Part shown: positions 1 to 62,835 of the stretch, piece after piece | Layout of the letters: each line of letters opens with the position of its first letter | Position numbering within the stretch: the stretch's first letter is position 1 | Assembly (NCBI RefSeq): GCF_002973535.1 | Contig: NZ_PVEP01000001.1 | Coordinates: 124,001-188,000 of the forward strand | DNA: 64,000 nucleotides | DNA from: Albidovulum denitrificans | Lineage (GTDB): Bacteria > Pseudomonadota > Alphaproteobacteria > Rhodobacterales > Rhodobacteraceae | Direction of reading: 5' to 3' | Made by a program: the position numbers and the translations under genes | Notes under the pieces: generated by a model | What the model saw: only the letters and a program-made list of their open reading frames with translations | The model's database searches: none | Told to the model about the DNA's origin: nothing

Positions 1-549
1 GCGATGGGGGGGAGGTGGGTCATCGGGATCTCCGTTTTCGGCGCCGGGTCTGGCGCGGCGGCGGAGGTAGCCGGGATGGGCGGGGCCATACAGGCCGATT
101 TCCAAACAGGAGCTGTGCGGCGTTGCGCAGGGGGGGCGGTTGGCTGTGCGTTGATCGGTGCAGGCCGCGAGAGAGCCATGTTCGGCGCTGGTTGGAGTTG
201 AGGCCAAGGGGACGGCGGTCACGAGAGTTTGATCCGGGACGGCAGGCGACCGTGGGCGCCGCCGGGACGGCTTCGGGAGGGGGTATGGTGCCGCCCCATC
301 GAACCCCGGTCGGGGTCTTGCCACCGCGAAAGCAGCCGCCCATGGGGGCGGCTGGCTGCCGGCCCAACGGGGCCAGGGGGCCTTCATTCACGGCCGCTTC
401 ATTGCGGGTCGGTGAGGGGCGCGCAATGCAGGAGGGGATGGCGGCCGCGTCCCGGACGTGATCCGGGACCTCTATCTTCGGGGGCGGAGGTCCCGGATCA
501 AGTCCGGGACGGCACCGCCTGCGCCATCGTGACGGCTGAGAGCCTCAGC
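1..549. other. 549-bp stretch without a convincing gene
   Basis: Several open frames exist on both strands, but they are rich in Arg, Gly and Pro, overlap each other and lack a good ribosome-binding site, as expected of chance frames in GC-rich DNA. The stretch holds a GC-rich hairpin around 331-352 (CAGCCGCCC pairing with GGGCGGCTG) and the large inverted repeat described separately at 449-510. It may be the edge of a gene lying outside the window, but nothing in it can be assigned. Confidence 0.5.
449..510. repeat. Inverted repeat, family GTCCCGGACTTGATCCGGGAC (copy 1)
   Basis: Two 24-base arms (449-472 and 487-510) are reverse complements apart from one base and flank a 14-base spacer. 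Each arm is itself nearly palindromic (GTCCCGGA / ATCCGGGAC). A second copy lies at 50009-50070. It is noncoding and would form a very stable cruciform or RNA hairpin. The type resembles the short palindromes dispersed through alphaproteobacterial genomes. Its role is unknown. Confidence 0.8.
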
Positions 550-58275: not shown

Positions 58276-59673
58276 CTAGCCCTTTTCCGGGCAGGTCCAG
58301 TCGGTCACGGTGAAATAGCTTTCGGGGTAAAGCCGCGCCTCGGTGATCTTCAGGACATAGTCGTCGTTGAAGCGGTTGATATATTCCCAGACCACCTTGC
58401 CGGAAGCGTCGATCTGGAAGGCGCGGCCCGCCTCGAATTCGGTGATGAGGAAGCCGCCCGCCGGGACCGGGTCGATCTTGCCGCGAATGACGCTTAGCAT
58501 CTCTTCGCCGGGGCGGTCGCCATAGACCCTTGTATAGCGGCCGGTGGCCGGATCGACCATGCCGACCTCGGTGACGAAGGGCGCCTTGGGGTCGAAACGG
58601 TCGTAGGTGTTCAGGCTGTTGCGATAGGTGTTGTTGTTGAACATCGCGATCTGCCCGTTGGGCAGGAATTCCGGGTCGTGCTGGCGCCGCCAGGGTCCGG
58701 TCTGGTGCCATTTCACCCGCCATGTGTCGGGGTCCACCACCGCCAGCATGTTGTATTTGCGGAAGGAAATCAGCAGATCGCCCGCCTTGAACATTGGGAA
58801 GGCGGGGGCAAGCGCGGGGGGCAGTTCCTCGATCTTGTTGACGTGGAGAAGATCGGAATGGCCCCCCTCTCCGGCCCAGAAGCTTTCGCCCGTCGCTGTC
58901 AGAACGGGTTCAAGACCGCTGTCATAGAGAAGCCGCATGATCGAATGTTCCTCGATCACCCGGCCGTCTTCCGAGACATGCTGGACCGTGTCGTCGGAAA
59001 ACGCGCCCTTTGGCTGTTTCAGCGTGAAGGGCGGAAACTGGTCTTCCGGGGCGGGGCTTCCGGCGGCGAAGTAGCGCCGACCGGGGACCCAGAAACCGCC
59101 CTCGGCCGCGCGTTCGACGGAATGGTGGCCGGGGCGGTGCAGCGTCCAGATCGGGTCGCCGCAGCGCGAAATGCGCACCGTGCCGACATATTCGTAGTTG
59201 AACGTGACCGAGCCGTCCGGCTCGATCACCGCGCCGTGGATGTCGACATTGCGGTCGGTCTTCGGCGCGCGATTGCCGACATAGTCCAGATCGGTGATGT
59301 AACGGCTGAGCGGCACCGGCCAGTCGGCCACCACCGTGCCGTCGCGGCGCATCAGGCGGATGCCGGTCTGGCCGTCGAAGAAGCTGGTCAGAAGGACAAG
59401 TTCGCCATCCGCGCCGACCTGATTGACCGTCACCCCCGCGCCCGGCTTGCGCGAGGGGCGGATGAAGGTTTCCGGCAGGTCGGTATCCATCTGGCCCGGC
59501 AGTTCGCGCAGGACCTGCTTGAATTCCGACTTCACGGTCTGCACCGCCCGGTAGGCGAAGTTCTTGCGGTCGGCCGAATAGACGCCCGCCAGGAAGCTGG
59601 CCCCCACGACAAGCAGGGGGGCCGCAACCCAGAAGGCCCGGCGCGCGAAGGCATCTGATTTCGGCGCTTTCAC
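58276..59673 (-). CDS. Arylsulfotransferase (ASST)-family-like protein, within the ilv operon
   Basis: 465 aa. One N-terminal membrane helix (AFWVAAPLLVVGASFLAGVY) anchors a large outer domain with repeated beta-propeller-like strands (IRLMRRDGTVVADWPVPLS, DIHGAVIEPDGSVTFNYE, EYINRFNDDYVLKITEARLYPE). It fits the ASST superfamily as I know it, including the HGA...PDGSV segment and a late His-x-Glu/Asp cluster (RQHDPEFLPNGQIAMFNNN). Sulfotransfer itself is unproven. It lies 38 bases after ilvB and 46 before ilvN on the same strand, so it is very probably co-transcribed. It has no known link to branched-chain synthesis. Confidence 0.75.
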   Translation of the reverse strand: MKAPKSDAFARRAFWVAAPLLVVGASFLAGVYSADRKNFAYRAVQTVKSEFKQVLRELPGQMDTDLPETFIRPSRKPGAGVTVNQVGADGELVLLTSFFDGQTGIRLMRRDGTVVADWPVPLSRYITDLDYVGNRAPKTDRNVDIHGAVIEPDGSVTFNYEYVGTVRISRCGDPIWTLHRPGHHSVERAAEGGFWVPGRRYFAAGSPAPEDQFPPFTLKQPKGAFSDDTVQHVSEDGRVIEEHSIMRLLYDSGLEPVLTATGESFWAGEGGHSDLLHVNKIEELPPALAPAFPMFKAGDLLISFRKYNMLAVVDPDTWRVKWHQTGPWRRQHDPEFLPNGQIAMFNNNTYRNSLNTYDRFDPKAPFVTEVGMVDPATGRYTRVYGDRPGEEMLSVIRGKIDPVPAGGFLITEFEAGRAFQIDASGKVVWEYINRFNDDYVLKITEARLYPESYFTVTDWTCPEKG

Positions 59674-59711: not shown

Positions 59712-61466
59712 TTACACCAGAACCGCGCCGCCCGCCTGAATCGCGCCCTCGGTCGAGGCGTCACCCAGAAGCATCTCGTTATGCGGTTTGCCCGACGGTA
59801 TCATCGGGAAGCAGTTTTCATGCTTCTCGACCAGCACGTCGAGGATGTAAGGCCCGTCATAGTCGAGCATCGCCATGATCGCGTCGTCGAGGTCCTTGGG
59901 GCTGTCCACCTTGGCGCCCTTGCAGCCGAAGGCCTCGGCCAGTTTGGCAAAATCGGGCAGGCTTTCGGACCAGGAATGCGAATACCGCTCACCATGCAGC
60001 AATTGCTGCCACTGGCGCACCATGCCAAGGCGTTCGTTGTTCAGGATGAACTGCTTGACCGGCGCGCGGAACTGCACCGCGGTCCCCATTTCCTGCATGT
60101 TCATCAGCCAGGACGCCTCACCCGCGACGTTGATGACAAGGCTGTCGGGATGGGCGATCTGCACCCCGATAGAGGCGGGCAGGCCATAGCCCATGGTCCC
60201 AAGGCCGCCAGAGGTCATCCAGCGGTTCGGCGCCTCGAAGCCAAGGAACTGCGCCGCCCACATCTGGTGCTGGCCGACCTCGGTCGTGACATAGCGGTCG
60301 CGGTCCTTGGTCAGCGCCTCAAGCCGTTCCAGCGCGTATTGCGGCTTGATCGTCTTGTCGGACCCCTTGTAGGACAGGCAGTTCTTCAGCTTCCACTGTT
60401 CGATCTGCCCCCACCATTTCGCCAGCGCCTCCTTGTTGGTCTTGCGCCCGCGCGCCTTCCAGACCTTCAGAAGGTCTTCCAGCACATGGCCGACATCGCC
60501 GACGATGGGCAGGTCGACATGGATCACCTTGTTGATCGAGGACGGGTCGATATCGACATGGGCCTTCTTCGATTTCGGGCTGAAATCGGCGATCCGTCCG
60601 GTGATGCGGTCGTCGAAGCGCGCGCCGAGGTTGATCAGCAGGTCGCAGCCATGCATGGCCAGGTTGGCCTCATAAAGCCCGTGCATCCCCAGCATGCCGA
60701 TCCAGTTCTTGCCCGATGCCGGATAGGCGCCCAGCCCCATCAGGGTGGAGGTGACCGGAAAGCCCGTCGCATCGGCCAGTTCGCGCAAAAGCTGGCTTGC
60801 CGCGGGGCCGGAATTGATGACCCCGCCGCCGGTATAAAGAACCGGCCGTTCCGCCCGCTCGATCATCGCGGCAAGGTCGGTGATGCCCTCGATATCGCCC
60901 TTCACCTTGGGCTGGTAATGGCTGACCTTCGCCTGTTTCGGCCCCTGATAGGTGCCGGTGGCGAATTGCACGTCCTTCGGGATGTCGATCAGCACCGGGC
61001 CGGGGCGGCCGTGGGTGGCGACATGGAAGGCCTGGTGAAGCGTCTCGGCCAGCTTGTCGGTGTCCTTGGCCAGCCAGTTATGCTTGGTGCAGGGGCGGGT
61101 GATGCCGACGGTGTCGGCCTCCTGAAAGCCATCCGTGCCGATCATGAAGGTCGGCACCTGTCCGGTCAGCACGACAAGGGGGATCGAATCCATCAGCGCG
61201 TCGGTCAGGCCGGTGACCGCATTGGTCGCGCCGGGGCCTGAGGTCACCAGAACGACGCCGGGCTTGCCGGTGGACCGGGCATAGCCCTCGGCCATGTGGA
61301 CCGCGCCCTGTTCGTGGCGCACAAGGATGTGGCGAATGTCGTTTTGCTGGAAGATCTCGTCATAGATCGGTAGCACGGCGCCGCCGGGATACCCGAAGAC
61401 CACCTCGACGCCCTGATCCTTGAGCGCCTGAACCACCATCTTCGCACCGGTCATCTGCCGCGACAT
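59712..61466 (-). CDS. ilvB: Acetolactate synthase large subunit
   Basis: 584 aa ThDP/FAD enzyme making acetolactate for valine, leucine and isoleucine. The catalytic Glu lies in VRHEQGAVHMAEGYAR; FGYPGGAVLPIYDEIF is the N-terminal motif; NLGARFDDRITG lies in the central FAD-binding domain; the ThDP motif reads VAGEASWLMNMQEMGTA. GEA replaces the more common GDG, a variant I associate with alphaproteobacteria. It starts at the ATG at 61466. Expression is predicted to be controlled by the upstream attenuator. Confidence 0.96.
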   Translation of the reverse strand: MSRQMTGAKMVVQALKDQGVEVVFGYPGGAVLPIYDEIFQQNDIRHILVRHEQGAVHMAEGYARSTGKPGVVLVTSGPGATNAVTGLTDALMDSIPLVVLTGQVPTFMIGTDGFQEADTVGITRPCTKHNWLAKDTDKLAETLHQAFHVATHGRPGPVLIDIPKDVQFATGTYQGPKQAKVSHYQPKVKGDIEGITDLAAMIERAERPVLYTGGGVINSGPAASQLLRELADATGFPVTSTLMGLGAYPASGKNWIGMLGMHGLYEANLAMHGCDLLINLGARFDDRITGRIADFSPKSKKAHVDIDPSSINKVIHVDLPIVGDVGHVLEDLLKVWKARGRKTNKEALAKWWGQIEQWKLKNCLSYKGSDKTIKPQYALERLEALTKDRDRYVTTEVGQHQMWAAQFLGFEAPNRWMTSGGLGTMGYGLPASIGVQIAHPDSLVINVAGEASWLMNMQEMGTAVQFRAPVKQFILNNERLGMVRQWQQLLHGERYSHSWSESLPDFAKLAEAFGCKGAKVDSPKDLDDAIMAMLDYDGPYILDVLVEKHENCFPMIPSGKPHNEMLLGDASTEGAIQAGGAVLV

Positions 61467-61501: not shown

Positions 61502-61527
61502 AAAAAGCCCCGGACCTGATCCGGGGC
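61502..61527 (-). terminator. Attenuator terminator of the ilv operon
   Basis: On the minus strand GCCCCGGA (61527-61520) pairs with TCCGGGGC (61514-61507) across a 5-base loop, followed by TTTTT (61506-61502), 36 bases before the ilvB ATG. A competing 9-bp pairing (GCGCATGGG at 61568-61560 with CCCATGCGC at 61534-61526) overlaps its base by two bases. Confidence 0.85.
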
Positions 61528-61552
61528 GCATGGGAACCGTTATGGTCTACCG

Positions 61553-61600
61553 TCACCGGCCCATGCGCGTCTTTTCTACAAGTACGAGGATCGGAGCCAT
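61553..61600 (-). CDS. ilvL: ilv leader peptide, 15 aa
   Basis: ATG at 61600, stop TGA at 61555-61553; the product is MAPILVLVEKTRMGR. Residues 4-8 are Ile-Leu-Val-Leu-Val, the three amino acids made by the pathway, which is the hallmark of a branched-chain attenuator. AAAGGA lies about 11 bases upstream. It is followed by the terminator hairpin before ilvB. Ribosome stalling here when charged tRNAs are scarce would prevent termination. Too short for standard gene finders. Confidence 0.85.
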   Translation of the reverse strand: MAPILVLVEKTRMGR

Positions 61601-61631
61601 TGCCCGAGGGTCCTTTTGCTGCTGCGCAGCG

Positions 61632-61660
61632 GACATTAGGCAGGCTTTGAAGGGGCGTCA
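61632..61660 (-). promoter_or_regulatory. Sigma-70-type promoter of the ilv operon
   Basis: TTGACG (61660-61655), 17 bases, TAATGT (61637-61632) on the minus strand. Transcription would start near 61625, giving a leader of about 25 bases before the leader peptide. Both hexamers and the spacing are close to consensus. Confidence 0.75.
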
Positions 61661-61756
61661 ACCGGCAAAATCGGGAATAAAATGTCGCAGGGGTGGCGGT
61701 GGTGGCTATTTTAATTGCGTGAGGCGGTCATCCGACGAAAGCTTTGCGAATTTGGG

Positions 61757-62671
61757 TCAGGCCAGAAGCACCATGTAGGCGGCATAGCCCGCCAGCAGGA
61801 CCGCGCCCCCCGCGCGCCCGACCTGGCCGGGGCGGATCGCGAACCACAGCATCGCCAGAATCGCCGCCACCGCCACCCCCATGTCGAGATGGGCAAAGCG
61901 CGGATCGACGGGGATCGGCTCAACAATCGCGGTGATGCCAAGGATGCCGAGGATGTTGAAGATGCAGGAACCGACGATATTGCCCACCGCGATCTCCGAA
62001 TGCCCGCGCAGGGCCGCCATGGCCGAGGTCGCGAGTTCGGGCAGAGAGGTGCCGATGGCGACGATGCTGAGGCCGATCACCGCCTCGGAGACGCCGAAAT
62101 CCCGCGCGATCTCGCTGGCGCTTTCGACCAGCAGCTTCGCCCCGATGATGAGGACGACCAGACCGCCAAGCGCGATCAGCGGGCTGAGGCCGAGCGCGGC
62201 CGACGGCACGTCAAGCGCCTCATGCTCCACCTCCTTGCCCGCGCGGATGCTGACGGCGAGATAGATCAGAAGTGCGGCCACCAGCCCGATCCCCTGCCAG
62301 CGAAAGACCATGCCGCCAAAGAGGATGCCCCAAAGGACAAGGCTCGCCGCCACGACGACGATGAAATCGCGTTTCGTGCGTTCAAAGGAAATTGGCACCG
62401 GCAGGACCAGCGCCGTCAGGCCAAGGATCAGCAGCACATTGGCGATGTTCGACCCGATCACATTGCCGATGGCGATGTCCGGCGCCCCGGCCAGCGCCGC
62501 CTGGACCGAAACCAGAAGCTCGGGCATCGAGGTGCCGAAACCAACGACGGTCAGCCCGATGATCAGTGGCGGGATCACCAGCCGCTGCGCGATACCGACC
62601 GAGCCGCGCACAAGAAACTCACCCCCCAGGAACAGACCGACCAGCCCGAGGACGAAAAGCACATAAACCAC
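61757..62671 (-). CDS. Calcium/sodium antiporter (CaCA family, YrbG type)
   Basis: 304 aa, ten helices in two inverted repeats. Each alpha-repeat has the ion-site motif: GFGTSMPELLVSV with GNVIGSNIANVLL, and AIGTSLPELATSA with GNIVGSCIFNILG. The start is uncertain: GTG at 62671 follows AAAAGGGA; an upstream ATG at 62725 would add a hydrophilic segment. Predicted inner-membrane Na+/Ca2+ or K+ exchanger. Confidence 0.9.
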   Translation of the reverse strand: MVYVLFVLGLVGLFLGGEFLVRGSVGIAQRLVIPPLIIGLTVVGFGTSMPELLVSVQAALAGAPDIAIGNVIGSNIANVLLILGLTALVLPVPISFERTKRDFIVVVAASLVLWGILFGGMVFRWQGIGLVAALLIYLAVSIRAGKEVEHEALDVPSAALGLSPLIALGGLVVLIIGAKLLVESASEIARDFGVSEAVIGLSIVAIGTSLPELATSAMAALRGHSEIAVGNIVGSCIFNILGILGITAIVEPIPVDPRFAHLDMGVAVAAILAMLWFAIRPGQVGRAGGAVLLAGYAAYMVLLA

Positions 62672-62835
62672 GACAGATTCCCTTTTGGTTGCAGCCTTAC
62701 TTCGGGGCTGACGCGGATTTTGCAAGGCCCCGTGGCGTCAGGGCGTGGATTTCCCACGCGGCAGGAACGCGACGGATGGACAATCCCGGCACCCCGCGAC
62801 AAGGATCGCGGGTCACCGGACGCGAGGAGGCGGCA

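Follow-up and report, generated by a model that had tools for sequence, protein, structure and literature searches.

What controls transcription of the acetolactate synthase gene ilvB in Albidovulum denitrificans, and does the short region in front of it act as a regulatory element? In the window, by which we mean the whole stretch of 64,000 nucleotides that was analysed, the minus strand carries a promoter, a leader ORF MAPILVLVEKTRMGR closed by a stop codon, a terminator and ilvB, in that order. We conclude that the element before ilvB is very probably a ribosome-mediated transcription attenuator of the ilvB operon, and the comparative evidence for such control of ilvB is strong. The element also occurs in front of Bcr/CflA-type MFS transporter genes in other alphaproteobacterial families; that both uses go back to one homologous module is a suggestion we put forward tentatively.

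Organization of the ilvB 5' region

The features, all on the minus strand, are as follows.

61656..61661, minus strand: -35 element TTGACG; TTGACN-16..18-TANNNT in 61/61 aligned relatives
61633..61638, minus strand: -10 element TAATGT; consensus CATAATGT in alignment A1
61611..61614, minus strand: AGGA, from its sequence the probable ribosome-binding site of the leader ORF, 10 nt 5' of the ATG
61553..61600, minus strand: leader ORF MAPILVLVEKTRMGR, ATG at 61600 to TGA at 61553; frame kept in 62 aligned loci
61577..61591, minus strand: regulatory codons 4-8, ATC CTC GTA CTT GTA (Ile Leu Val Leu Val)
61560..61568, minus strand: antiterminator 5' arm GCGCATGGG, end of codon 11 to codon 14; pairs with 61534-61526
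61550..61559, minus strand: small inner hairpin CCG-GUGA-CGG, its loop holding the stop codon; 98.9% of cells paired
61526..61534, minus strand: antiterminator 3' arm CCCATGCGC; final 2 nt common to the terminator
61507..61527, minus strand: intrinsic terminator hairpin GCCCCGGA-TCAGG-TCCGGGGC; 95.3% of cells paired
61502..61506, minus strand: terminator U-tract, five T; T columns invariant in alignment A2
59712..61466, minus strand: ilvB, acetolactate synthase large subunit; Pfam TPP_enzyme N, M and C domains
58276..59673, minus strand: arylsulfotransferase-like gene between ilvB and ilvN; Pfam PF14269
57669..58250, minus strand: ilvN, acetolactate synthase small subunit; Pfam ALS_ss_C and ACT domains

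The two promoter elements are 17 nt apart (61661-61656 and 61638-61633), and a purine-rich block occupies the position equivalent to AGGA in alignment A1. The leader ORF reads ATG GCT CCG ATC CTC GTA CTT GTA GAA AAG ACG CGC ATG GGC CGG TGA, and its stop codon lies 4 nt past the end of the antiterminator 5' arm. The antiterminator helix has 9 bp (61568-61560 with 61534-61526). The terminator stem has 8 bp (61527-61520 with 61514-61507), and the terminator as a whole reads GCCCCGGATCAGGTCCGGGGC then TTTTT (61527-61502). The original prediction had proposed a TTGACG-17-TAATGT promoter, a 15-codon leader with Ile-Leu-Val-Leu-Val at residues 4-8, an 8-bp hairpin followed by five T ahead of ilvB and a 9-bp alternative pairing; all four are found where it placed them, the pairing to the nucleotide, and only the end of its range, 61660, loses the first T of TTGACG. 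An extended GGGG/CCCC antiterminator, judged by eye, was dropped because the window has no G run there.

ilvB starts at 61466, 35 nt past the U-tract. Judging from these distances, the space is too short for a second promoter together with a ribosome-binding site, so transcription of ilvB would have to pass the terminator. Downstream, the gene row ilvB-arylsulfotransferase-ilvN was also read correctly, yet it is not the usual one: ilvN could be placed 3' of ilvB in 76 relatives, and the arylsulfotransferase lies between the two genes in 2 of these 76 (L008, L009). It is therefore a rare insertion, which would share the control of ilvB if cotranscribed.

Conservation across Rhodobacteraceae

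We collected 80 ilvB relatives (83-91% identity) with their flanks. An anchored leader is present in 61 loci and a near form in one more (L071); alignment A2 has 62 rows, 61 of them distinct, with the window included. Across many genera the leader is 15 codons long in nearly all aligned loci. Of the 310 codons at positions 4-8 in the 62 leaders, 287 specify Ile, Leu or Val; the C-terminal end reads Arg/Cys-Met/Val-Gly-Arg-stop. The promoter pattern occurs in all 61 aligned relatives, with a spacing of 17 in 60 of them, and the antiterminator helix is paired in 99.3% of cells (61 distinct sequences). Both-sided changes are seen in the inner hairpin in 2 sequences, and in the terminator at 4 pairs, amounting to 19 such cells. 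Beyond codons, stems and promoter, the leader sequence is little conserved. Alignment of relatives for the leader frame and the stems had been proposed as a check on the attenuator, and across the 62 aligned loci it passes strongly.

The last codons of the leader change in ways that keep the pairs and alter the amino acid, CGC to TGC in 4 leaders and ATG to GTG in 2; a change of both partners, CG to UA, seen once, likewise keeps the pairing. Given that these changes mostly preserve pairing though the peptide alters, a constraint at the RNA level is favoured, and the alignment indicates that it is RNA pairing that preserves the Arg-Met-Gly-Arg end.

A covariance model built from the ilvB leaders has matches in 129 of 150 Rhodobacteraceae genomes, nearly all of them single-copy. 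Since some low-scoring matches are transporter leaders (G289, G292, G296), the number of ilvB leaders is slightly below 129. The source genome of the window holds one true copy; a low-scoring match in the same genome (L105) is unrelated to the element. Genome G312 has two ilvB copies (L186, L187), each with its own leader, MGPILVVPKRMRMGR and MADIVILVGKWRMGR. In 14 Paracoccus ilvB loci (L019, L023, L037, L041, L044, L046, L047, L049, L051, L053, L062, L069, L072, L073) a leader and terminator of the RMGR type are absent, and a TTGACC/TAGTTT-like promoter near ilvB is kept; this absence looks like loss. Degenerate or altered ilvB leaders, in which the RMGR end is lost and the terminator kept, occur at L064, L070 and L079.

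Codon choice in the leader

The regulatory codons differ sharply from those of the gene they precede. GTA makes up 88 of 143 regulatory Val codons (61.5%) compared with 3.1% in ilvB of the same loci, and CTA 26% of regulatory Leu codons compared with 0.9%; likewise CTT reaches 55% in leaders against 11% in ilvB and ATT 51% against 11%, and GTG and CTG are nearly absent from the regulatory codons. Expressed as odds, the enrichment in leaders is about 50-fold for GTA and about 40-fold for CTA. Six genes of the window use GTA for 0.5% of Val codons, CTC for 14.5% and CTT for 23% of Leu codons. The suggestion that the leader codons include rare ones is thus correct for GTA, whereas CTC and CTT are not very rare here; as a family-wide trait, the evidence for it is very strong. 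According to attenuation theory, regulatory codons of low general usage lead to hypersensitivity, and rarity alone is an oversimplification (PMC1183508).

A model for control of ilvB

Transcription is predicted to start about 7 nt past the -10 element, and a ribosome would then translate the 15-codon leader. With ample charged tRNA-Ile, -Leu and -Val, the ribosome would arrive at the stop codon and mask the antiterminator arm in codons 11-14; with this arm masked, the terminator would close to its base and transcription would end, with an RNA of about 125 nt as its product. If one or more of Ile, Leu and Val is scarce, the ribosome would stall at codons 4-7, leaving the arm GCGCAUGGG free to pair with the emerging CCCAUGCGC and to capture the 2-4 nt at the base of the terminator 5' arm. 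The terminator hairpin would then be unable to close against the U-tract and RNA polymerase would continue into ilvB.

In equilibrium folding, a ribosome placed at the stop codon so that 12-15 nt downstream are covered leaves the terminator base paired with a probability of 0.99. Moving the A-site to codons 4-7 for a 12-nt footprint, or to codons 4-6 for one of 15 nt, lowers this pairing to an average of about 0.75; from codon 8 (12-nt) or 7 (15-nt) onward it is back at 0.95-0.99, so that codon 8 is just beyond the stall range that alters the fold. Because the fold changes only with the A-site at codons 4-7 or 4-6, the relevant stall region coincides with the Ile, Leu and Val codons. As to the other state, the geometry suggests that a ribosome at the stop codon would cover the antiterminator 5' arm.

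The equilibrium effect of stalling is partial because the two stems share 2-4 nt only: the overlap is 2 nt in the window and 2-4 nt in relatives, and the consensus fold draws both stems. Full mutual exclusivity of antiterminator and terminator is unsupported, as the stems largely coexist at equilibrium. The overlap at the base of the terminator that the original prediction pointed out is therefore real, though merely 2 nt here, and its reading of the locus as a peptide-coded attenuator gains comparative support, although mutually exclusive pairing rests on this short overlap. We infer that the switch works by folding order, in which the antiterminator forms first and holds bases that are due to close beside the U-tract. 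A 1:2 pause or protector hairpin does not appear in the RNAalifold consensus of the 62 leaders, where the region 5' of the antiterminator arm is unpaired; thus an untranslated leader would likewise favour the antiterminator.

Relation to known attenuators

The enterobacterial operons had been taken as the point of comparison; the closest described relatives are instead alphaproteobacterial. Vitreschak et al. 2004 are cited (in PMC1273637) for an ilvB leader peptide of alphaproteobacteria, and Tarleton et al. 1994 (in PMC4117421) for an ilvBN attenuator in Caulobacter crescentus. As far as the citing papers describe them, they are like the element studied here in having a peptide with Ile/Val codons, a Rho-independent terminator and the same target genes. 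Since the leader peptide was described in 2004, the attenuation of ilvB proposed here belongs to a known type, and its family signature is clear. In E. coli, the leaders of ilvBN (ivbL) and ilvGMEDA likewise use peptide-coded attenuation by branched-chain amino acid (BCAA) codons, but have 32 residues and 11-15 BCAA codons (PMC6123439), whereas the leader here has 15 residues, 5 contiguous BCAA codons and no conserved 1:2 hairpin.

A search of Rfam at the window leader returned zero families above threshold. RF02502 (Atu_C8) aligns over the whole leader, with an identical GCGCAUGGGC/CCCAUGCGC helix and a terminator, yet reaches 24.1 bits where the gathering score is 50. In 142 genomes the sole above-threshold Atu_C8 match, L086:1499-1609, stands before an MFS transporter and includes the Val-rich leader ORF MRMMQVSVVVGRRMGKAA. 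Given this ORF and its position, Atu_C8 looks like a cis-acting leader.

The same element before Bcr/CflA-type transporters

Run class-wide on 289 genomes, the ilvB-leader model finds six true leaders outside Rhodobacteraceae, all before a Bcr/CflA-type MFS transporter, and the above-threshold Atu_C8 match is a seventh such leader. A model that includes transporter leaders, run on 385 genomes, adds five more true leaders, again all before a transporter of this type. Outside Rhodobacteraceae, 12 of 12 true matches (L086, L093-L097, L100, L149, L152-L155) thus precede a Bcr/CflA-type MFS transporter and none precedes ilvB; four further transporter leaders lie within Rhodobacteraceae (L120, L122, L128, L188). 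Both transporter proteins examined (n=2) score above the cut-off of TIGR00710. The weak class-wide matches L098, L099 and L101-L104 were rejected, being similar to plain terminators or unrelated. Upstream of ilvB in 14 genomes sampled outside Rhodobacteraceae, a leader of the RMGR type is absent. At L113, a locus outside Rhodobacteraceae, ilvB is preceded at a distance of about 225 nt by a BCAA leader of another kind, MTTQLVLIRQPLSGRD, in which CAGCCGCTG can pair with CAGCGGCTG.

How close are the two kinds of leader? The best four transporter leaders score 57-69 bits with the model from ilvB leaders alone, and transporter leaders have the GGCGC/GCGCC helix, CGG-stop-CGG and the terminator. 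They differ from ilvB leaders in the downstream gene and in the peptide, which is mostly Val-rich (for example MNPKSVVVVVSRRCMVR and MHILIVVVGERRLDR; few Val in L097, L100 and L122), and their Val codons are ordinary (GTA 11/47). Leader-bearing transporters cluster on the protein tree, with 2 changes compared with 11.3 in shuffles, a figure biased by leaderless rows that come from one family. When 10 transporter leaders and 4 ilvB leaders are aligned together, covariation does not exceed that of shuffles.

The simplest reading of these sequences is that ilvB and transporter leaders are of common ancestry, the transporter version being the more widespread; convergence on a good antiterminator is a conceivable alternative. 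A fuller form of the common-ancestry reading is possible, at rather less than even chances: the RMGR leader may be one homologous module of ilvB in Rhodobacteraceae and of a Bcr/CflA MFS subgroup in Alphaproteobacteria, Atu_C8 included, in which the more widespread transporter version would be induced by stalling at Val codons and would have been re-tuned for BCAA synthesis through mixed rare Ile, Leu and Val codons. We found no description of an attenuator before Bcr/CflA transporters in the literature searched and, as far as that literature shows, the sharing of an attenuator with an efflux-type transporter is undescribed.

Alternative explanations

Could the leader sense a general slowing of translation, as caused by translation inhibitors or a global tRNA shortage, with the Ile, Leu and Val codons merely one way to bring it about? 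The occurrence of the same RNA element ahead of efflux-type Bcr/CflA transporters in other families would fit, yet ilvB leaders mix Ile, Leu and Val and strongly choose GTA, CTA, CTT and ATT, whereas the transporter leaders are rich in Val with ordinary codons, and we consider this explanation improbable. More improbable still is that the conserved product is a trans-acting small RNA, or a peptide, released by the terminator, with control of ilvB secondary. Rfam labels the related Atu_C8, to which the whole leader aligns below threshold, an sRNA, and the S. meliloti trp attenuator does yield a trans-acting sRNA and peptide (PMC10117765, PMC7298713). Against such a role, the position ahead of ilvB is kept, the regulatory codons fit the product of the operon, and little sequence apart from the codons, the stems and the promoter is conserved.

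The upstream exchanger gene (61757-62725) is on the same strand, and a hydrophobic short frame might by chance lie beside its ordinary terminator. When the 290-nt intergenic region was put through 5000 dinucleotide shuffles, an ORF with five consecutive Ile, Leu or Val codons arose in 11 and a comparable terminator in 2, but the two together in 0; the fold of the 136-nt leader is 2.9 sd better than that of its own shuffles. Frame, codons and promoter are, moreover, kept across genera, and coincidence is hardly credible. Ribosome-mediated attenuation of ilvB is thus the reading that we retain.

The ilvB leaders form a well-delimited, testable family of BCAA-synthesis attenuators in a major family of marine and soil bacteria, and their unusually clear rare-codon signature bears on the theory of selective tRNA charging. 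If the link to the transporters is true, a peptide attenuator would have moved between an amino acid operon and an efflux-type gene, and the Rfam "sRNA" Atu_C8 would be a cis-regulatory leader.
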